64,000 bases of DNA from positions 1 to 64,000 of IMG/VR virus record IMGVR_UViG_3300042569_000831; one strand, 5' to 3'. This document shows positions 980 through 41,369 of this stretch, piece after piece (within the stretch, counting starts at the first letter, position 1; each line of letters begins with the position of its first letter). A program made the position numbers and the translations under genes. Under the pieces are notes generated by a model. That model had not been told where the DNA came from and did not search any database. It worked only from the letters and a program-made list of their open reading frames with translations. The stretch is from a virus.

Positions 980-1509
980 TTGTAACTGCCGGTCATAGCG
1001 ACATAAAGGGTGGAGATAACGGAGCCTCAGCAAATGGATATGTTGAGGGGTTGTTGGCCATTGAGTTCAGGGATCTTATTATTAAAGAGATGGCTGCCTT
1101 GGGTGTGGTTGCTCACACTGACGATAATAAGAATGCCTTAAAACAAACTTTAGAGTGGCTTAAGGGCAAGTTCAGTAAGGACTCTATATTGGTCGATATT
1201 CATTGGAATGCAGGTGGTGGTACCGGAACTGAGGTTATAGTTCCTGAGGATTCTTCTTCTTTTGAAAGACAATTGTCCCAAAGAATCTTGGATAAAATTT
1301 GCTTGATTGGCGGATTTAAAAAGAGAGGGGTTAAGTCCGAAGCTGAGACCGCAAGAAAGAAATTAGGTTGGATGCGACCTACTGCTGAGACTGTTTTGAT
1401 AGAAGTTTGTTTTATAGACAACAAGGTTGATATGGTTTCTTACGAGGCTAATAAAGTAAGACTAGCTACAGAGGTGGCAAAGGTTTTATTGGACTTTAGT
1501 AATATGTAG
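964..1509 (+). CDS. N-acetylmuramoyl-L-alanine amidase (Amidase_3), endolysin
   Basis: The 181-residue protein matches the Amidase_3 fold. VTAGHSDIKGGDNGA (residues ~7-21) carries the first zinc-binding His, VDIHWNAGGGTGTEV (~78-92) carries the second His of the usual S.H.N motif, and ETVLIEVCFIDN (~143-154) carries the catalytic Glu near the C-terminus. It has no signal peptide, so release to the cell wall would depend on the adjacent holin. It is predicted to cut the amide bond between muramic acid and L-alanine during lysis. Confidence 0.88.
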   Translation: MPRKVIVTAGHSDIKGGDNGASANGYVEGLLAIEFRDLIIKEMAALGVVAHTDDNKNALKQTLEWLKGKFSKDSILVDIHWNAGGGTGTEVIVPEDSSSFERQLSQRILDKICLIGGFKKRGVKSEAETARKKLGWMRPTAETVLIEVCFIDNKVDMVSYEANKVRLATEVAKVLLDFSNM

Positions 1510-1842: not shown

Positions 1843-2367
1843 ATGAGATATTTATTTATACTATTATTGTTTGCTTGCAATCCGGTAAAAAAGGTTATGA
1901 ACGATCCTGCTAAATACAAGAAAGTTACTGACGCCTTTGTTTTGTCGGGCGGCTGTGCAAATGATACTGTTACAGTAGAAGTTGTTAAGGACACTGTAAT
2001 ATACAGGGATTCTGTTGTTAAGGAATTTTACAATGTTCCGTGCAAGGATTTTGATACTACCTTCGGTGATACTAGAATTTCTGTCAGTTCGGGGGTCCTA
2101 AGGTACGTGCATACTTGTCCAAAGTGCGATGTAAAGATTATAAAACAAACAAACACAATAGTAGACAGAACACTAGAGAAGGTTCTCAGAGCCTCTATAG
2201 TTACTAAGGATTCTATTATAAGTTCCTATATTAAAGTTATTGCCGAAAGGGATGCTACTATTTCTGAGCTAAAAAAGAAGAACAGGTGGATGACTATTAA
2301 GATGGGTGCCGCTTTTGCTTTGTTTATTGTGATATTGTTTAGAAAGTTTTTAATACGCCTGATATGA
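1843..2367 (+). CDS. Candidate unimolecular spanin (u-spanin)
   Basis: The 174-residue protein has a lipoprotein signal at the N-terminus (MRYLFILLLFAC, lipobox LFAC with Cys12) and a single membrane segment at the C-terminus (residues ~152-170). Between them lies a periplasmic region with a predicted coiled coil (~105-148). An outer-membrane lipid anchor plus an inner-membrane C-terminal segment in one chain is the defining layout of u-spanins such as phage T1 gp11, which fuse the two membranes in the last step of lysis. Location two genes after the endolysin supports this. It is inferred from topology, not from sequence similarity. Confidence 0.6.
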   Translation: MRYLFILLLFACNPVKKVMNDPAKYKKVTDAFVLSGGCANDTVTVEVVKDTVIYRDSVVKEFYNVPCKDFDTTFGDTRISVSSGVLRYVHTCPKCDVKIIKQTNTIVDRTLEKVLRASIVTKDSIISSYIKVIAERDATISELKKKNRWMTIKMGAAFALFIVILFRKFLIRLI

Positions 2368-3092
2368 ATATAAAGGAAGTTCACGATGTTATATTGTTCT
2401 ATCTAAAGAAAGATCAGCAGGGGTTTGTTACTCACGCTGAGATAGATGAAGTATTAGATAGAAGTCAGATGGCGTTGTTTAATAAGTATCACTCTAACCC
2501 GGTTGTTTACACTGTACCGGGAAAGAAGGAAGGGTTTGGGTATGGAGATTCATTGAGGATGGACGAGGCTTTGGCTCCGTTTAAATCCAAGTACACTTTC
2601 TTGAACGTGGATACTCCTTCGGGAATTATAACACTTCCATCTAACCACATGCATATAATCTCATTGTACACTACTACCTACGTGCAATCATTGGCAAGAA
2701 ATGTTTACAATGCTATACAGGTATTAAACGAGGAGGAGTTGATTGATAGGCTTAACAGTCAGGTTATTCCTGTTAGTATTGACGACCCTGTGGCGATATT
2801 AAATTCTAACAAGAAGATTCAGATGTTCCCGGAGCAGCCTGCGAGTGGAGCGGTTTTCTATTTTAGAAGACCGGCAGTGCCGAGGTTTGGGTACACTGTA
2901 AGCGGTAGAACTATTACTTATGTTTCTACTCAGTACGATGCGACTACTAATCCTAATGGGTCGCAGGAGTTAGAGTGGAATGAATTAGACAAGAACAATG
3001 TAATTATTGAGGCATTATCTTATTATGGAATTAATTTAATGTCTTCTGATATTGTGCAATTTGCTGAGAATAAAATAAATCAAGGACAATAA
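2364..3092 (+). CDS. Virion structural protein, probable connector/tail component
   Basis: The 242-residue protein overlaps the spanin candidate by 4 bp and abuts the next structural gene. It has a helical N-terminus and a beta-rich remainder, with no signal or membrane segment. The three consecutive proteins starting at 2364, 3092 and 3706, followed by a ~1200-residue protein, recall the ring/tail-tube then tail-hub order of podoviruses. I assign a structural role from position only. Confidence 0.5.
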   Translation: MNIKEVHDVILFYLKKDQQGFVTHAEIDEVLDRSQMALFNKYHSNPVVYTVPGKKEGFGYGDSLRMDEALAPFKSKYTFLNVDTPSGIITLPSNHMHIISLYTTTYVQSLARNVYNAIQVLNEEELIDRLNSQVIPVSIDDPVAILNSNKKIQMFPEQPASGAVFYFRRPAVPRFGYTVSGRTITYVSTQYDATTNPNGSQELEWNELDKNNVIIEALSYYGINLMSSDIVQFAENKINQGQ

Positions 3093-3706
3093 TGACGACC
3101 CGCTACAAAATTTATGAACAAATTCAGAGGCTTTTGTCAGGCAATCCTATTATTAGTGGGCGTGTTCAAAAGAATGATATAAAGTTATTGATTGGGCAGG
3201 TGTCTAATAAGCTATTAAAGGCTGAGCACTTTTCTATTAATATGCCTGAGGGAGATAGTATTCCCCCGAACTGCATGATTTATACCTACGAGTCGGTTCC
3301 TGTAGTTTCTTATGGTACCGGCAAGAGTAAGTGTACGCTTCCTTCAATGCCGATTAACCTACCTAAGAATGTTGGCGTATTCCATATCTCTAAGACTAAC
3401 GCATTGGACGAGCCTTTTGTTCCGATACCATCAGGGCTTTACGGTATCATAAAGCCGCAAAGTTTATTGGGACAATTAAGTGGATTGATAGGTTACGAGG
3501 TTTACGGGAGCACAGTTATATTTACTCAGGACCTTCCTGCAAATGGTGCTAATGCTGTATTTATGAGATTGGTTGGTGTTGATATTGAATCTGTTGATGA
3601 CTACACTATCCTTCCGATAACAGCAGACATGGAAGCGGATATTGTTACTACTGTATATCAAATATTAGTTGGATTGCCTGTGGCAGATAAACAAACGAAC
3701 GATTAA
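3092..3706 (+). CDS. Virion structural protein, function unknown
   Basis: The 204-residue protein shares 1-bp start/stop overlaps (TAATG) with both neighbours, which indicates tight translational coupling inside the tail operon. It has a helical N-terminal third and a beta-rich middle. No named family is recognised. A head-to-tail or tail ring role is inferred from context. Confidence 0.5.
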   Translation: MTTRYKIYEQIQRLLSGNPIISGRVQKNDIKLLIGQVSNKLLKAEHFSINMPEGDSIPPNCMIYTYESVPVVSYGTGKSKCTLPSMPINLPKNVGVFHISKTNALDEPFVPIPSGLYGIIKPQSLLGQLSGLIGYEVYGSTVIFTQDLPANGANAVFMRLVGVDIESVDDYTILPITADMEADIVTTVYQILVGLPVADKQTND

Positions 3707-4467
3707 TGAAAACATACACAATAGATAATATAGTTAGGCAAACCCTGACAGATCGGGGGTACACAATGCATTGGTATTTACAATTCCTTAATTACGCTAT
3801 TAATGCACTAAGGGAGTTGAATTTTGATACATTGCAGAATGTGAAGAGTGTTAGGATGCCGGTAGATTCTATAGGTGCCTTAAAGCTTCCTTGTGACTAC
3901 GTGGACTTTATTCGCATAGGTAACGAGCTTGGGGAATTTATTGACCCATACGTTCAGCGAGAAGCATTTAATAACATGTACAGATTTGACGAGAACGGAA
4001 ATAAAACAAAGTACGATAATATAGATGCAGCTTCCGGGTACTTTCCGGCTAACTACGATGGATTATTTTACTCTAACTATGCCAATGATAAGGGCGAGTT
4101 GACCGGTAGGATATTTAATGGCCAACCTTCGCTAAGACATTCATTTAAAGTAATCAAAGAAAGAAACGAAATACAGTTGGATATTACCTTTGCTAAAAGC
4201 ACGATAGCTTTGGATTATATAACTGACGGGACTAGTGTTGATGCTTCTAATGCAGTTCATCCTTACGCCATTAATACGATTAAGGCTTTCATAGTATGGC
4301 AAATGAAAGAGCATAATAGGTATTATAATTTATCGGAAAGAGAAACTAGCAAGAACATTTACTACAACGAATTAAGAATACTCAGAGGTAGATTAAATTC
4401 TATGGATGATGTTGATATTAGAAGAAGCCTTGCAGTGGCTTATGGTCCTACAATTAAAATGGCATAA
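3706..4467 (+). CDS. Probable tail tubular/stabilisation-type protein
   Basis: The 253-residue protein begins with a short helical segment (RQTLTDRGYTMHWYLQFLNYAINALRE, shown here as residues ~9-35), then a region with LPCDYVDFIRIG (~64-75). This 'helical N-terminus, then LP.D...RIG' style is common to podoviral tail adaptor or tubular proteins. It overlaps both neighbours by one base. The call is by resemblance and gene order. Confidence 0.5.
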   Translation: MKTYTIDNIVRQTLTDRGYTMHWYLQFLNYAINALRELNFDTLQNVKSVRMPVDSIGALKLPCDYVDFIRIGNELGEFIDPYVQREAFNNMYRFDENGNKTKYDNIDAASGYFPANYDGLFYSNYANDKGELTGRIFNGQPSLRHSFKVIKERNEIQLDITFAKSTIALDYITDGTSVDASNAVHPYAINTIKAFIVWQMKEHNRYYNLSERETSKNIYYNELRILRGRLNSMDDVDIRRSLAVAYGPTIKMA

Positions 4468-7400
4468 TGGCAATAACAAAAAAAATATTATTAGGTGGTA
4501 TTAACTCTGACGATGTAGAGCATATTATAGATACGAAAGATTATCTTAATGCGCTTAATATGAGATTTATTACCAACGAGAACGGCAAGGCCGGTAAGAT
4601 GTCTGCTGTAGAAGGTACCGTTATGAAGAATGCTTTGTTCAACGGGGCTACTACTATTCCATTTGTACTACCTGCCGGGACCAATACTACCATTGGTGTT
4701 GTTGAGGATTTCAGAAGAAACAGAGTAATATTTTTCAATAAGAACTCTAATAATAACAACGGCATATACTGCTACGATTATTTAGCAAATGTTGTTTATA
4801 AGGTTGTTGACTACTCTCAGGTTGTTGGAGGCTTGGAGTTCGGGAGTGATATACATTCGTGTGCAATTATGGGCGATGTGGTGTATTGGACTGATGGTGA
4901 TACGCCTCAGAAAAAAATAAACATAGAAGCAGGTATTAAGGGTAATCATCCTTCTTACGTTTCCGATTATGCTGCATATACTTTCCCTATGGCGGCTAGT
5001 GTATTGGGTTTAGTTAGGAACCAACCTGCATACCCTTTATTGGCATCTAAGTCGAATGACGCTGCGTACTTAAATAATTTTATTAAAAACGAAGCATTTC
5101 AGTTTTGCTACAGATTTGTTTACAGGGATTTTGAAGTAAGTACGTTTTCTCCTTTATCTATTTTGCTCAACTACAATCTAAGTGAAAGCAATCTAAATAG
5201 AATAGAAATAAATATACCTACTGCTCAAAAAATACAACAAGACGTAATACGAATAGAGATAGCGGTTAAATACGTTTACGGTAATAAATACAGTATTGTA
5301 AAGGTTTGGGATTATTTAAAGGATGCAACTGCTATAGCTAATCATAATTCAGGAACCGCTACTGCGTTAAGGTATTATTTTTATAACGACACTATCGGGG
5401 TATCTGTAGATGATGCAACTGCTACCAAGCCATTTGACTCTATACCGTTATTATCTGAGACTTTGGAAATAGCTAAGGATAGATTATTCTTAGGAAATAA
5501 TACTGATGGATACGCTTCTCCTTCTACTACTTCCCTTTCCAATAGCTTGAACACAACGTCAGGAACTACTCCTACGGGGCAGTGGTATCAGATTCAGTAT
5601 TACAAAATATCTGACCCTACTGCTTACTATGCTTACGTTTTAAAAATAACTAATATTCTTGCGGAAGGATATTATATACCCTCTATAGGAGGTCCATTTG
5701 AAAATACTCCGCTACCTACTAGTGTGGACTTTAATACTTATATTAGAATTGCTACTGATGAAGATAGCCTTAGGAATTATGTAGATGGTGGTCTTGGTGG
5801 TATTAAAGCTACTGCGGTAATATCTGTAACACCTTACACTGCTACGATTACAAATGCCCCGTCATCATCGGGATTGGTAGGCAAGACAGTATTTAAGAGC
5901 GATTCTTATTATAAATTAGGCGTAGTTTTCTACGATGAAGCGGGAAGAAAATGCGGCGTTGTGACTAACGATACTGCTAGTACTAAGGCTGTAATACCTG
6001 ATAGAAATTATGCTTCTATTACTTATACAGAGAGTGTAAATTGGACATTATCTAACGCATCCTCTGCTATAGAAATTCCTGATTGGGCTAGGTATTACGG
6101 AATAGTAATGACTAAGTGTTTGAGAACTAATTTCTTTATGCAGGCACGGGCTGATTATGTTGGGTATATTTCTAAGGATTCTACTACCGGAGAGTTTCAA
6201 GCGCCGGTAACTTCTTATAGTGCTACTGCTTATGGGATAGTAGTACAGGCTAAGAGTCTTAATAGTTTTGGGATAGGGTATGCTTACCAAGCAGGAGATA
6301 TTTTAAAATTGTATAAGTCGGGCGTTACTACCGCTCCATTATCACTTGCTGTTAAAGGAACTTACTCCGACTATGTTATTGTAGAACTTAAGGATATAGG
6401 ATTAACGGGATCTACAAATTACTTCTACGAGTTATATACCCCGTACACTTTAAGTTTTAACGAGTATTATTACGAAACCGGGAATACTTATTTGGTGAAT
6501 AATCCGGGAACTCCTAGTAGGTCTTATAGTTCGTTAACCGGAACTATAACCGGTGACGTGACTATTCTTCAAAGAAACACTTCTTATTTAGTTGAGGCGA
6601 TGTCTCCTAATGATACTTATTGGAAGAATTGGATAACTAATGCGGGAAGAGTTAACATTGTAAACGCAGGGAAACAGACTAAAAAAAGAACGTCTGTCTA
6701 TTTTAGTGATGTTAGGATACTTGGTACAGAGTCAAACGGACTAAGTTCTTTTGACGCCCTGAATCAATACGAATTACCTTACGAATTATCGGCCGTTAGA
6801 AAGCTTCAATTAGTAAACAAAGTAGAAACGGAAGGTACTTTAATGTTGGCTATAGGAGAGAACGAAACCGCTGTTATGTACTTGGGCGAGACTCAGGTGT
6901 TTGACAATACCGGGTCTTCATTCTTAGCTAAGAGTTCGGGGGTGATAGGTAATGTAAATGTTCTTAGGGGAAGTTACGGAACTATAAATCCTGAGAGTGT
7001 TTGCAGGTTTGCCGGAAGTGTTTATTGGTTTGATGCTAATAAGGGCTGCATGGTAGCCTTTAACGAAAGCGGGTTGAATAATATTTCTGACATGAAAATG
7101 TTTAACCATTGGAAGAAGGTGGGCCAAGATATTTTAGCTAACGGTAAAAAGATATACGGAGGAATAGATCCTTACAACGGTGAAGTGCTAATGTATGCGC
7201 CTTACAAATCAGTTATACCTGTAGGGATTATATTGAGCGATACTATTGTTAGTAGTACTAATCATTCGTACTCGGCCGGAAGCGGGTCAATAACACTGAC
7301 ATTAACTTCTGATTGCACTTATACTATATCTTCTACCAACAACGTTACCGTAACTTATGCCGGGGAAACTATTACAAATGCCGGCAGTTCGGGGGTGTTC

Positions 7401-38214: not shown

Positions 38215-38234
38215 GTTGTTTAGGTTTGTTTTAG

Positions 38235-38304
38235 CGACCAATGCCGGAATCGAACCGGCAACTACCCGATACAGTCAGGCGCTTTCCCATTAAGCTAAGT
38301 GGTC
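38235..38304 (-). tRNA. tRNA-like gene with a shortened anticodon loop
   Basis: Acceptor GACCACT/ATTGGTC (one mismatch), D stem GCTT/AAGC, and T arm GCCGG-TTCGATT-CCGGC are clear. The anticodon stem CCTGA/TCGGG encloses only CTGTA (5 nt), so a GTA anticodon would lack positions 37-38. A 4-5 bp alternative with loop ACTGTAT would give TGT but lacks U33. All other lengths are canonical, so this may be a damaged or unusual tRNA. Confidence 0.6.
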
Positions 38305-38575: not shown

Positions 38576-38603
38576 AAAAAAGAGAGGCAGCCTGAGCCGC
38601 CTC
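38576..38603 (-). terminator. Intrinsic terminator
   Basis: On the minus strand GAGGC.GC and GC.GCCTC pair around TCAG and are followed by TTTTTT. It ends the array of tiny genes that starts near 41.6 kb. Confidence 0.7.
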
Positions 38604-38629
38604 CCTAACCTCAACAACCAAAACTTGTT

Positions 38630-38666
38630 ACTAGTTACGATTGAACGCCACGGCTTGACCGCTAGT
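38630..38666 (-). ncRNA. Three-way-junction RNA, copy 1 (family A)
   Basis: P1 ACTAG/CTAGT, hairpin CGG-TCAAG-CCG, and hairpin GCG-TTCAAT-CGT. This copy lies between the last tiny gene and the terminator, not before a start codon. Confidence 0.6.
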
Positions 38667-38674
38667 ATAGAACT

Positions 38675-38863
38675 TTATATAAGTCCTAAGTCCGACTGCC
38701 TGAAAAGTGATCTTAACTTGCAGTCGTTCATGTATTCCTTTACGTCAATATTAAGTTCCCTTAATATGATTAAAGTCCTACTGTGGTTTGATGGTTTCAC
38801 AAATCTTCTTATAATTCGTCCATCAGGTTTAGCGGATACTACCGCTTTTGTTTTTTTGCGCAT
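38675..38863 (-). CDS. Small basic hypothetical protein
   Basis: I start at MRKKTKAVVSAKPDGRIIRR, which follows a CCTC-ATG leader. A longer form would need a GTG start inside the RNA element at 38891-38935. The 62-residue product is basic (Arg, Lys) and may bind nucleic acid. Function unknown. Confidence 0.5.
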   Translation of the reverse strand: MRKKTKAVVSAKPDGRIIRRFVKPSNHSRTLIILRELNIDVKEYMNDCKLRSLFRQSDLGLI

Positions 38864-38890
38864 GAGGCTTGATTTGAAGATTAAAAAAGG

Positions 38891-38935
38891 AACTGCATGT
38901 GTATCGCTCACAATAACATCTAAATGTTTGCAGTT
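38891..38935 (-). ncRNA. Three-way-junction RNA, copy 2 (family B)
   Basis: P1 AACTGC/GCAGTT, hairpin AACAT-TTAG-ATGTT, and hairpin TGTG-AGCGATA-CACA. The 5' P1 strand overlaps a GTTCGGGGG motif copy (38933). Confidence 0.6.
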
Positions 38936-38942
38936 CGGGGGA

Positions 38943-39014
38943 CTAAATGTTATCAGCTAGTGTACATAGTAACAAGACTAAAATAATAGCAATAACTTTA
39001 AGGGCGTTTTTCAT
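38943..39014 (-). CDS. Tiny membrane peptide (23 aa)
   Basis: The short form MKNALKVIAIILVLLLCTLA plus DNI is a single hydrophobic segment with a basic start, like a membrane peptide or signal. The longer reading through an upstream ATG overlaps another gene, so I prefer this form. The product may sit in the inner membrane. Evidence is topology only. Confidence 0.4.
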   Translation of the reverse strand: MKNALKVIAIILVLLLCTLADNI

Positions 39015-39075
39015 AGTGTAGTATTTTATACCCGATAGGGCATTATTAATAAGGTTTAAGGGGAAACTGTACCCG

Positions 39076-39297
39076 TTAAGGTACATTGAGCATAGCTTCA
39101 ATAGCCCAATGATGAAGCGTATCCCATGTAATACCAATACTTGCATCATGGCTAGATATCATTTTTTCTAGTGCCCATTTAGCCTGATTTTCGCTTAATC
39201 CCCAATCGGAAAAGTCGCTTACAGACCATTTAACCGATTCTTTTTTGTACTGTTCAAATTCAGCTAGTAGCTGTTCGTACTTTTGTTTGTAATCCAT
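39076..39297 (-). CDS. Small helical hypothetical protein
   Basis: The 73-residue protein opens with a coiled-coil helix (MDYKQKYEQLLAEFEQYKKE) and ends hydrophobic. It is preceded by three-way-junction copy 3 and the shared CCTCAAAAC leader. Function unknown. Confidence 0.55.
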   Translation of the reverse strand: MDYKQKYEQLLAEFEQYKKESVKWSVSDFSDWGLSENQAKWALEKMISSHDASIGITWDTLHHWAIEAMLNVP

Positions 39298-39317
39298 GTT
39301 TTGAGGTTTTGATGAGT

Positions 39318-39356
39318 GCCTATTTACAATTGAATGTTACGGCTAAACCGATAGGC
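39318..39356 (-). ncRNA. Three-way-junction RNA, copy 3 (family A)
   Basis: P1 GCCTAT/ATAGGC, hairpin CGG-TTTAG-CCG, and hairpin ACA-TTCAAT-TGT. It is followed by CTCATCAAAACCTCAAAAC and the ATG of the 73-residue gene. Confidence 0.7.
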
Positions 39357-39363
39357 AAGAAAG

Positions 39364-39561
39364 CTAAAAATAAAAATTATCAATATGGATATCGTGACCC
39401 TGCAATCCATATATCAATTCTACAAAATTATTATAGGTATTTTCGCCTATAATGCCGTTGGTGACTATTTTACCGTCCTTAATTTCTACATGCCCAATAC
39501 ATTCTTTATTTTGCCTTATAGACATCAAATGTTGGTCTCTAGTTAAATCTAAATTTTGCAT
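39364..39561 (-). CDS. Small beta-rich hypothetical protein
   Basis: The 65-residue product is beta-rich (ECIGHVEIKDGKIVTNGII) and not recognised. It follows three-way-junction copy 4 and starts at ATG after a CCTCAAACAG leader. Confidence 0.5.
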   Translation of the reverse strand: MQNLDLTRDQHLMSIRQNKECIGHVEIKDGKIVTNGIIGENTYNNFVELIYGLQGHDIHIDNFYF

Positions 39562-39582
39562 CTGTTTGAGGTTTTGATGAGC

Positions 39583-39621
39583 TCCTGAGTGTAATCGAAT
39601 ACCACGGCTAAACCGTCAGGA
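39583..39621 (-). ncRNA. Three-way-junction RNA, copy 4 (family A)
   Basis: P1 TCCTGA/TCAGGA (changed on both strands compared with copy 3), hairpin CGG-TTTAG-CCG, and hairpin GTA-TTCGAT-TAC. Confidence 0.7.
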
Positions 39622-39628
39622 AGTTTTG

Positions 39629-39736
39629 CTATTCAAATATAGCGTTAAATTCTACATCAGTATCGGGCTCCTTAAGTGCATCATTTGCGATTAACACAGA
39701 AATAAAGATAGCGCCTAAAATAATAAAAAATGTCAT
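39629..39736 (-). CDS. Tiny single-pass membrane protein (35 aa)
   Basis: MTFFIILGAIFISVLIANDA is a membrane segment, followed by an acidic tail. The ORF sits between two other tiny genes. There is no three-way-junction copy directly before it, only a CTCAGTCAC leader. Confidence 0.45.
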   Translation of the reverse strand: MTFFIILGAIFISVLIANDALKEPDTDVEFNAIFE

Positions 39737-39756
39737 GTGACTGAGGTTTTAAAGGT

Positions 39757-39954
39757 TTAAAATAAAATTCCGTTTTTATCTAGCTTATTTGCTAATTCTA
39801 ACTTTTCAGGATCGTTTTTTATGGCTCTCATTCTGAAAAACATCATTTTATCTATTACAAATGTGCTTTCTTCTTTTGGGATGCCATACAATCTAACATG
39901 CTCTATTAATTCGAGTACGTTTTTTTTAAAAGTTGACTTTTCTTTTGTAGTCAT
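39757..39954 (-). CDS. Small basic hypothetical protein
   Basis: The 65-residue helical product (MTTKEKSTFKKNVLELIEHV at its start) is basic and not recognised. Copy 5 of the RNA element precedes it with the usual CCTCAAAAAC leader. Confidence 0.55.
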   Translation of the reverse strand: MTTKEKSTFKKNVLELIEHVRLYGIPKEESTFVIDKMMFFRMRAIKNDPEKLELANKLDKNGILF

Positions 39955-39973
39955 GTTTTTGAGGTTTAATGAG

Positions 39974-40014
39974 AGCCTATTCGTAATTGAATACCACGGC
40001 TAAACCGATAGGCT
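39974..40014 (-). ncRNA. Three-way-junction RNA, copy 5 (family A)
   Basis: P1 AGCCTAT/ATAGGCT, hairpin CGG-TTTAG-CCG, and hairpin GTA-TTCAAT-TAC. Confidence 0.7.
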
Positions 40015-40020
40015 AGTTAA

Positions 40021-40305
40021 CTAAATTTTAATCCACGAACCGTTCCATTTTTGCCCGTTTAAATACCACTCGCCCTTTTTTTGGCAGATACTTACATTAG
40101 GGATAGCGTTCAAGCGCTCTTTTGTAGTTCTAGTTTGCCATCCCGCATTAGAGATAAAAATACCTTCGCTGTTTTTTTTGGCGATTAAATTGTTGTGCAG
40201 TCTTAATTCTACACAGTCGGGATAAATACGAACAGTAGTGTTATCCTTAACAAAATTTTGACTGTTCAAAAAAGCGCTAACCGCTTGTTGTGTAATTTGT
40301 TTCAT
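40021..40305 (-). CDS. Hypothetical protein
   Basis: I start at MKQITQQAVSAFLNSQNFVK because it follows the shared CCTCAAAAC leader. The longer form would run into the RNA element. The ~94-residue product has KKGEWYLNGQKWNGSWIKI at the end, beta-rich. Similar small proteins with a C-terminal YLNG..W..W pattern occur in phages. Role unknown. Confidence 0.55.
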   Translation of the reverse strand: MKQITQQAVSAFLNSQNFVKDNTTVRIYPDCVELRLHNNLIAKKNSEGIFISNAGWQTRTTKERLNAIPNVSICQKKGEWYLNGQKWNGSWIKI

Positions 40306-40324
40306 GTTTTGAGGTTTGTTGAGC

Positions 40325-40363
40325 TCCCATTTGCGATCGAACGCCACGGCTTAACCGACGGGA
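40325..40363 (-). ncRNA. Three-way-junction RNA, copy 6 (family A)
   Basis: P1 TCCCGT/ATGGGA, hairpin CGG-TTAAG-CCG, and hairpin GCG-TTCGAT-CGC. Both P1 and the second hairpin differ from copies 3-5 while staying paired. Confidence 0.7.
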
Positions 40364-40370
40364 AAGGGGA

Positions 40371-40715
40371 TTATACGATAGGCGAAGGGATAATTTCAAA
40401 TACTCTTAAGCAAATATTATTAGTGTATAAGGTTTTTTTACCTTGTTTCCATTGCTCAATTTCTGATTCGGTAGCTTCTGAATTATTACCGTCTACCAAA
40501 TTTGAATAATGCAATGAATTTTCTTCGTCAATAATGCAATGATCAAAATTAAAAGAAAAGTACAATTCTTTTTGAAAATAGAGCTCAATTGCTTTTTTTA
40601 CATTTTCAGCTTCTATTTTAGCTTCCTGAATATAACCGTTTGCATGGCCTAATTCGCCCTGATCATAACTATCTACATAAACATCATGGATAGTTTTAAT
40701 TAAAAAATACTTCAT
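40371..40715 (-). CDS. Hypothetical protein
   Basis: The 114-residue product begins MKYFLIKTIHDVYVDSYDQG and has an acidic, mixed composition. It is not recognised. RNA copy 7 precedes it with the shared leader. Confidence 0.55.
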   Translation of the reverse strand: MKYFLIKTIHDVYVDSYDQGELGHANGYIQEAKIEAENVKKAIELYFQKELYFSFNFDHCIIDEENSLHYSNLVDGNNSEATESEIEQWKQGKKTLYTNNICLRVFEIIPSPIV

Positions 40716-40735
40716 GTTTTTGAGGTTTTGATTAG

Positions 40736-40776
40736 AGACTATTCACAATTGAATGTCACGGCTTAACCGATAGTCT
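40736..40776 (-). ncRNA. Three-way-junction RNA, copy 7 (family A)
   Basis: P1 AGACTAT/ATAGTCT, hairpin CGG-TTAAG-CCG, and hairpin ACA-TTCAAT-TGT. Confidence 0.7.
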
Positions 40777-40781
40777 ATTTT

Positions 40782-40913
40782 TTAGCATCCTAGCCCGTCA
40801 CAACTGCAATTTCCATCACATTCAATATGAAGCGGCATATTGCAATAATGTTTATTATAATCAATTGGCAAATTTATTAGCAATATTGCTAATATTAAAA
40901 GTAATTTTTTCAT
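40782..40913 (-). CDS. Small secreted Cys-rich peptide (43 aa)
   Basis: I start at MKKLLLILAILLINLPIDYN, a Sec signal or membrane anchor. The tail ECDGNCSCDGLGC has four Cys residues in 11 positions, with one more Cys upstream. Such small Cys-rich exported peptides could bind metal or form disulfides. The start follows the shared CCTCAAAAAC leader and RNA copy 8. Confidence 0.5.
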   Translation of the reverse strand: MKKLLLILAILLINLPIDYNKHYCNMPLHIECDGNCSCDGLGC

Positions 40914-40934
40914 GTTTTTGAGGTTTTGTTGAGG

Positions 40935-40979
40935 AACTGCCCGTGTATTGATCACGTTAACATCTACATGTTGGCAGCT
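40935..40979 (-). ncRNA. Three-way-junction RNA, copy 8 (family B)
   Basis: P1 AGCTGCC/GGCAGTT, hairpin AACAT-GTAG-ATGTT, and hairpin CGTG-ATCAATA-CACG. A GCTCGGGGG copy (40977) begins in its P1. Confidence 0.6.
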
Positions 40980-40986
40980 CGGGGGA

Positions 40987-41316: not shown

Positions 41317-41369
41317 GAGGTTTCGCTATTCTGTAGCTCATCAGTATAGATAACACATCTATAAACCTC
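41317..41369 (-). ncRNA. Hammerhead ribozyme
   Basis: On the minus strand stem III GAGGT/ACCTC, stem I TATAGAT/ATCTATA (loop GTGTT), core CTGATGA, stem II GCTA/TAGC (loop CAGAA) and GAAA are all present in the right order. The conserved core positions C3, U4, G5, A6, U7, G8, A9 and G12-A14 match. Cleavage is predicted after the U17 between stem III and stem I, leaving the gene mRNA with a structured 5'-hydroxyl end. Confidence 0.88.

Follow-up and report, generated by a model that had tools for sequence, protein, structure and literature searches.

To our knowledge, only tRNA genes and hammerheads had been known from the gaps between the genes of phage operons (tRNA, transfer RNA). For serial hammerheads in prophages, a role in dividing phage transcripts into messenger RNAs (mRNAs) of gene length has been proposed (PMC3088659). 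Hairpins that join an acceptor stem to a T-arm are efficient substrates of RNase P, which also cuts the gene 32 mRNA of phage T4 (PMC11143913), and human RNase Z grips the same acceptor/T-arm minihelix and its elbow (PMC11996679). Here we describe an array of small structured RNAs between the minus-strand genes of one operon in a 64,000-nucleotide (nt) stretch (the window) of the virus record IMGVR_UViG_3300042569_000831, an IMG/VR entry of 66,007 bases. We conclude that these elements represent a tRNA-like structure of a new variety; lacking an anticodon arm, they are not tRNAs, nor are the short copies hammerheads. With a tyrosine integrase, a DnaB/primase-like protein, YqaJ and Rad52 recombination proteins and an SU10-like capsid protein among its products (ten proteins tested against Pfam), the source virus is a tailed phage and probably temperate, and its A-rich leaders without a Shine–Dalgarno sequence suggest a Bacteroidota host. 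No earlier description of such elements was found in the open-access literature, most subscription journals and preprints lying outside the search. A preliminary description of the locus, made from its sequence, had not recognised the class; Rfam 15 agrees, no family reaching its cut-off in the window, in contigs L051 and L015 or in five isolate-phage loci, and at permissive thresholds the short copies drew chance matches only.

The preliminary description reported six minus-strand copies of one shape, and all six are present at their places with stems and loops as it gave them (Table 1). Each of these short (S-type) elements consists, in order, of a closing stem P1 of 6–7 base pairs (bp), a P2 hairpin, UG or UA, a P3 hairpin (stem of 3 bp, loop of 6 bases), in most cases RA, and the returning strand P1′. 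With P1 as listed in Table 1, copies 1–5 cover 40736–40776, 40324–40364, 39974–40014, 39582–39622 and 39317–39357. A covariance model recovers these six copies, and no others, in the window (E ≤ 1). The common leader that had been noticed after most copies, CTCATCAAAACCTCAAAAC-ATG, lies 3′ of five of the six; the copy at 38627 has a hairpin resembling an intrinsic terminator in place of a gene. The array as first drawn was incomplete: two long-stem (L-type) copies, which follow the S-type plan with longer stems in the same operon, a hammerhead-like sequence at the operon head and a tRNA gene in the next gap had been missed. Both L-type copies measure 12 nt between T-loop and the end of P1, and the one at 40934–40980 is present in the related contig L030 too.

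Thermodynamic folding of single copies was unremarkable for the short elements (RNAfold z from −0.3 to −2.0), the two long ones reaching −3.9 and −2.5, and we therefore let comparative evidence decide. Pattern scans in which the stems under test were left free were run over 2.9 million viral contigs. With P2 and the loops fixed, P1 and P3 both pair in 22 of 26 viral contigs and not in the remainder; with P1 and the second loop fixed, P2 and P3 both pair at 30 of 35 sites, the other five being almost unpaired. Such a two-peaked outcome is what a real structure gives. In an alignment of 44 sequences, 95.8% of cells are paired, compared with 66.0% (standard deviation 1.3) after shuffling and 30–45% after sliding, and two-sided changes occur in 12 of 14 pairs; the third pair of P2, for instance, varies from G-C to C-G, A-U or U-A. 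The same picture came from an earlier alignment of 29 sequences in which P2 was fixed by the query. It had been said at the outset that a lack of further copies with compensatory changes would count against an RNA structure, and the scans gave many more. We conclude that the three-way-junction fold with covarying stems, as first proposed, is real, far beyond chance.

The second hairpin is where the resemblance to tRNA lies. When P3 and its loop were left free in the scan, the loop came out as TTCGAT, TTCAAT or TTCAAA at 25 of 26 distinct sites, that is, as UUCRAN, in which U54, U55, C56, R57 and A58 are fixed and the following base is variable. Judged by these bases, the hairpin is T-arm-like and its loop a T-loop, which makes the S-type element tRNA-like; the preliminary description had seen a small covarying hairpin and not its T-loop, tRNA-like nature. 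The loop facing it, that of P2, has purine-G as its last two bases almost throughout the 44-sequence alignment, and this purine-G probably docks into the T-loop in the manner of G18–G19 in the tRNA elbow. The distance from T-loop to P1 end is 11–12 nt, close to the 12 layers of a tRNA acceptor plus T-stem. Across 63 distinct S copies, P1 pairs at all seven positions in 37 and at six of seven in 24, the next base is C in 56 and the preceding base a pyrimidine in 55, so the end of the helix is defined. The junctions measure 0, 2 and 2 nt and contain UG/UA and RA only. An anticodon arm is absent from every element type examined.

S-type elements occupy same-strand gaps between genes, and their position there is narrow. 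In the same 63 copies, P1 begins a median of 6 nt after the upstream stop codon (4–7 nt in 38 of 54) and ends a median of 26 nt before the next ATG. As many as nine scanner matches per locus lie ahead of unrelated small genes, there is no consistent downstream gene family of the kind expected for a riboswitch or a cis-regulator of one gene class, and the last copy in the window precedes no gene. With such varied genes downstream, and none at all after one copy, the early suggestion of a riboregulator dedicated to one gene does not hold. When patterns were run against a genome collection, one of 11 matches, in Roseburia sp. 1XD42-69 (L039), scored as a full element, and the S type is thus essentially viral. 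When isolated phages were searched by BLAST with S- and L-type elements, only chance matches came back, and matches in Vibrio and Pseudomonas fell inside coding genes. A second small hairpin of varying stem (for example ACCAAAC-ATAG-GTTTGGT or ACTAGAC-ACAA-GTCTAGT) often stands between element and start codon (L048, L049, L050, L061, L066, L067, L009, L018, L024). One 62-nt gap within the window's array (39014–39075, minus strand) lacks a tRNA-like element: its sequence includes CCCTATCGGG but no hairpin with a T-loop.

A simpler relative, the minihelix type, occupies the same gaps in the same genomes. Its P1 is acceptor-like and is joined by the unpaired strand (G)AUGGUYGYA to a complete T-arm with a 7-base T-loop; there is no anticodon arm. 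Scanning the viral contigs yielded 63 distinct sites, and P1 was present in all of them even though the query had left it free. In an alignment of 35 of these, 99.5% of cells are paired, with two-sided changes in 10 of 12 pairs. The span from T-loop end to P1 end, a length that the search did not constrain, is 12 nt in 42 of the 63, 13 nt in 15 and 10–11 nt in 6; within the 12-nt class, 29 of 42 have A directly after P1. The minihelix type therefore has the 12-bp acceptor plus T-stem of a tRNA, and the S type has 11–12 layers, two unpaired. The AUGGU of the minihelix, like the purine-G of the S type, is conserved and compatible with docking between D-loop and T-loop. Multiple element types coexist in several contigs.

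Minihelices are present, unannotated, in the isolated Mycobacterium phages Sheen, SWU2, HINdeR and Indlulamithi, in Streptomyces phage Dagobah and in Gordonia phages. In the right-arm operon of Gordonia phage VanLee, all 16 same-strand gaps longer than 70 nt hold a coding-strand tRNA-like element without an anticodon arm, a count made by reading the printed gaps and leaving out the 362-nt leader gap. Some of these elements carry AUGGUYG and others a D-arm-like hairpin such as GCTC-TGGT-GAGC; the majority were recovered by a generic scanner, which at an equal threshold gave no match in shuffled sequence. A candidate element also precedes the Erf gene of Bacteroides phage BF1-TP2. VanLee gene 126 (L205, 752–2368) encodes a Ro-like RNA-binding protein, in a phage with tRNA-like gap elements, and a Ro/Y-RNA link is possible.

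Equivalent gaps also hold hammerheads and tRNA genes. The hammerhead-like sequence at the head of the window's operon is the single match to the hammerhead core pattern, with 0.06 expected; it scores 17.7 bits with Rfam Hammerhead_3, under the cut-off of 48.5, and its counterpart in L030 has stem II changed on both sides but a mismatch at the stem II base. Contig L051, which shares the integrase-flanked layout of the window, carries two further hammerhead-like sequences together with minihelix, long and short elements (Table 1). None of the S-type copies contains the hammerhead core (CUGAUGA ... GAA between three stems), which in the window occurs only at the separate operon-head sequence.

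Table 1. Elements and neighbouring features of the array in the window and gap occupants of the related contig L051 (stems given as 5′ strand/3′ strand, hairpins as stem-loop-stem)
Feature	Contig	Position	Strand	P1	P2	P3	Remarks
Hammerhead-like, type III layout	Window	41317–41369	−				Operon head; GAGGU-U-UAUAGAU-GUGUU-AUCUAUA-CUGAUGA-GCUA-CAGAA-UAGC-GAA-ACCUC
L-type (long-stem) relative	Window	40934–40980	−	GAGCTGCC/GGCAGTTC	AACAT-GTAG-ATGTT	CGTG-ATCAATA-CACG	
S-type copy 1	Window	40735–40777	−	AGACTAT/ATAGTCT	CGG-TTAAG-CCG	ACA-TTCAAT-TGT	
S-type copy 2	Window	40323–40365	−	TTCCCGT/ATGGGAG		GCG-TTCGAT-CGC	
S-type copy 3	Window	39973–40015	−	AGCCTAT/ATAGGCT		GTA-TTCAAT-TAC	
S-type copy 4	Window	39581–39623	−	TTCCTGA/TCAGGAG		GTA-TTCGAT-TAC	
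S-type copy 5	Window	39316–39358	−	TGCCTAT/ATAGGCA		ACA-TTCAAT-TGT	
L-type (long-stem) relative	Window	38890–38936	−	GAACTGCA/TGCAGTTC	AACAT-TTAG-ATGTT	TGTG-AGCGATA-CACA	
S-type copy 6	Window	38627–38669	−	TACTAG/CTAGTA		GCG-TTCAAT-CGT	Last of the array, ahead of the terminator-like hairpin
Terminator-like hairpin	Window	38576–38603	−				GAGGCGGCTCAGGCTGCCTC and a T run; end of array; from a reading of the sequence
tRNA-Thr gene	Window	38234–38304	−				Next gap, same strand; followed by an A-rich leader of like kind and ATG
Type III hammerhead	L051	720–777					Complete core; Rfam 42 bits, just under cut-off
Type I hammerhead-like sequence	L051	~1177–1228					Complete core and stems; below Rfam cut-off
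Minihelix	L051	~1951–1996					
Long three-way junction	L051	~2445–2492					Others also present
Short three-way junction	L051	2883–2925					
Short three-way junction	L051	3539–3581					

The 9-mer CCCCCGARC has 34 sites on both strands of the window (for example 3263, 26421, 40977 and 61780), in coding and non-coding DNA, compared with 0.24 expected. It is dense also in the related contigs L030, L051, L015, L014, L154 and L168, and hardly elsewhere. In elements of the L and minihelix types, the 9-mer often makes up the 5′ arm of P1.

We favour, with a probability of about 0.55, the explanation that the copies are tRNA-like punctuation of a polycistronic phage transcript, which RNase P of the host, and perhaps RNase Z as well, would cut. 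In each copy P1 is an acceptor-like closing stem, one short hairpin takes the place of the D and anticodon arms, and the T-arm-like hairpin completes the mimic. Host RNase P would cut 5′ of P1 and RNase Z perhaps 3′ of it, splitting the long transcript into mRNAs the size of single genes, each with either a short, defined leader or a structured 5′ end that protects it. The anatomy of the elements is compatible with an RNase P substrate. Punctuation by RNase P seems most likely to us in view of the published precedents for hammerheads, RNase P and RNase Z and of a plausible role common to the three kinds of gap occupant: hammerheads are self-cutting, RNase P and 3′ processing excise tRNA genes, and the mimics resemble minimal RNase P substrates. 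Among the roles offered in the preliminary description, a processing element accords with this explanation, the cutting being inferred; the riboregulator and the new ribozyme do not.

Several observations weigh against punctuation by cutting. The docking of purine-G has no support from covariation and rests on conserved, invariant bases. With two unpaired bases (UG/RA) forming a layer inside its 12-layer stack, and with a T-loop of six rather than seven bases, the S type is a degenerate tRNA mimic that RNase P perhaps only binds. No CCA follows the elements, P1 is mismatched in two L030 copies, and the terminal window copy adjoins a terminator, where splitting mRNAs is less obviously useful.

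The main rival keeps the same tRNA-like fold and leaves it uncut, as a stable barrier or protein site (an insulator keeping the leader free of structure, an exonuclease block or a site for a Ro-type tRNA-binding protein) that protects each cistron or aids its translation. The fixed median of 26 nt to the next start codon, the location right after the stop codon and the terminal copy ahead of a terminator would all suit such a barrier, as would the Ro-like protein encoded by VanLee. A barrier leaves unexplained, however, why hammerheads and tRNA genes lie in equivalent gaps and why the acceptor/T-stem length is constant, and none of the ten proteins of the window that were compared with Pfam proved Ro-like; we regard it as rather unlikely.

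The T-loop and acceptor mimicry and the many copies per genome could also be read as bait, the elements being tRNA decoys that absorb tRNA-targeting defence nucleases or tRNA-binding factors of the host. A decoy, however, needs no fixed coding-strand place between stop and start codons. Anticodon nucleases, moreover, usually attack the anticodon arm, which is the part absent here, and this role seems highly improbable.

Comparison of L030 with the window reveals swapped or inserted small genes with breakpoints inside elements, which brings to mind DNA-level cassette exchange of the integron attC kind, with any RNA role secondary. One L030 element (3303–3345) has a mismatched P1 that combines the 5′ strand of one P1 with the 3′ strand of another, and two others (4464–4506 and 4785–4827) are identical duplicates. 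Against attC-like sites stand the paired changes in P1, P2 and P3 between phages, the presence of G-U pairs, the coding-strand orientation of every VanLee element and the conserved T-loop bases, and the swaps are explained by homologous recombination through conserved cores. Weighed on anatomy alone, exchange as the primary function is very doubtful; because the L030 breakpoints fall inside elements, the conserved cores serve as recombination points, probably as a by-product. Scarcely probable, finally, is the new small self-cleaving ribozyme of the preliminary description, which would share its gaps and its branch order (stem, hairpin, hairpin, stem) with hammerheads but has 0/2/2-nt junctions without a catalytic-core-like conserved internal loop, conserves the T-loop bases and the purine-G of the facing loop, and has anticodon-less relatives that are plainly tRNA mimics.

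If punctuation by RNase P accounts for the window, it may extend well beyond it. We put forward tentatively, at a little short of even odds, that phages of several unrelated host groups have adopted, independently or by exchange, anticodon-less tRNA mimics of at least three structural types as general punctuation in nearly every operon gap, where RNase P and RNase Z would release single-gene mRNAs, a counterpart of mitochondrial tRNA punctuation. If true, these two enzymes would be general processors of phage messages, beyond tRNAs, and phage operons would hold an unrecognised layer of control over mRNA ends. The elements are missing from the annotation of well-studied isolates that infect laboratory hosts, Mycobacterium smegmatis phages among them, which makes the idea readily testable. 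They would also offer minimal substrates of natural origin with which to explore the recognition requirements of RNase P and RNase Z, and would show how gene cassettes can join an operon with their own processing signal.

Among known systems, mascRNA-menRNA (RF01684), the tRNA-like domain of transfer-messenger RNA and viral tRNA-like structures share with the phage elements the mimicry of tRNA at the elbow, and the L015 minihelix matches mascRNA below threshold (23.9 bits, with 42.5 required). They differ in sequence, size and setting, and none is reached at its Rfam cut-off. The serial prophage hammerheads (PMC3088659) are likewise structured gap elements of phage operons with a proposed role in transcript cutting, and here the two share operons; their fold is different, and the phage elements would need host enzymes rather than self-cleavage. 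With tRNAs and mitochondrial tRNA punctuation the elements have in common an acceptor-like stem that makes up about 12 layers together with the T-arm, a UUCRA T-loop, a place between the genes of a polycistronic transcript and, in the minihelix type, a D-loop-like GG. Unlike tRNAs, the elements, which occur in phages, have neither anticodon arm nor CCA and are missed by the Rfam tRNA family and by ARAGORN, which calls no tRNA at them, and their cutting is proposed rather than established. The minihelix type has essentially the form of the minimal RNase P substrates (PMC11143913), with a short D-loop-like strand added; those substrates are laboratory constructs, whereas the phage elements are natural and lie between genes.

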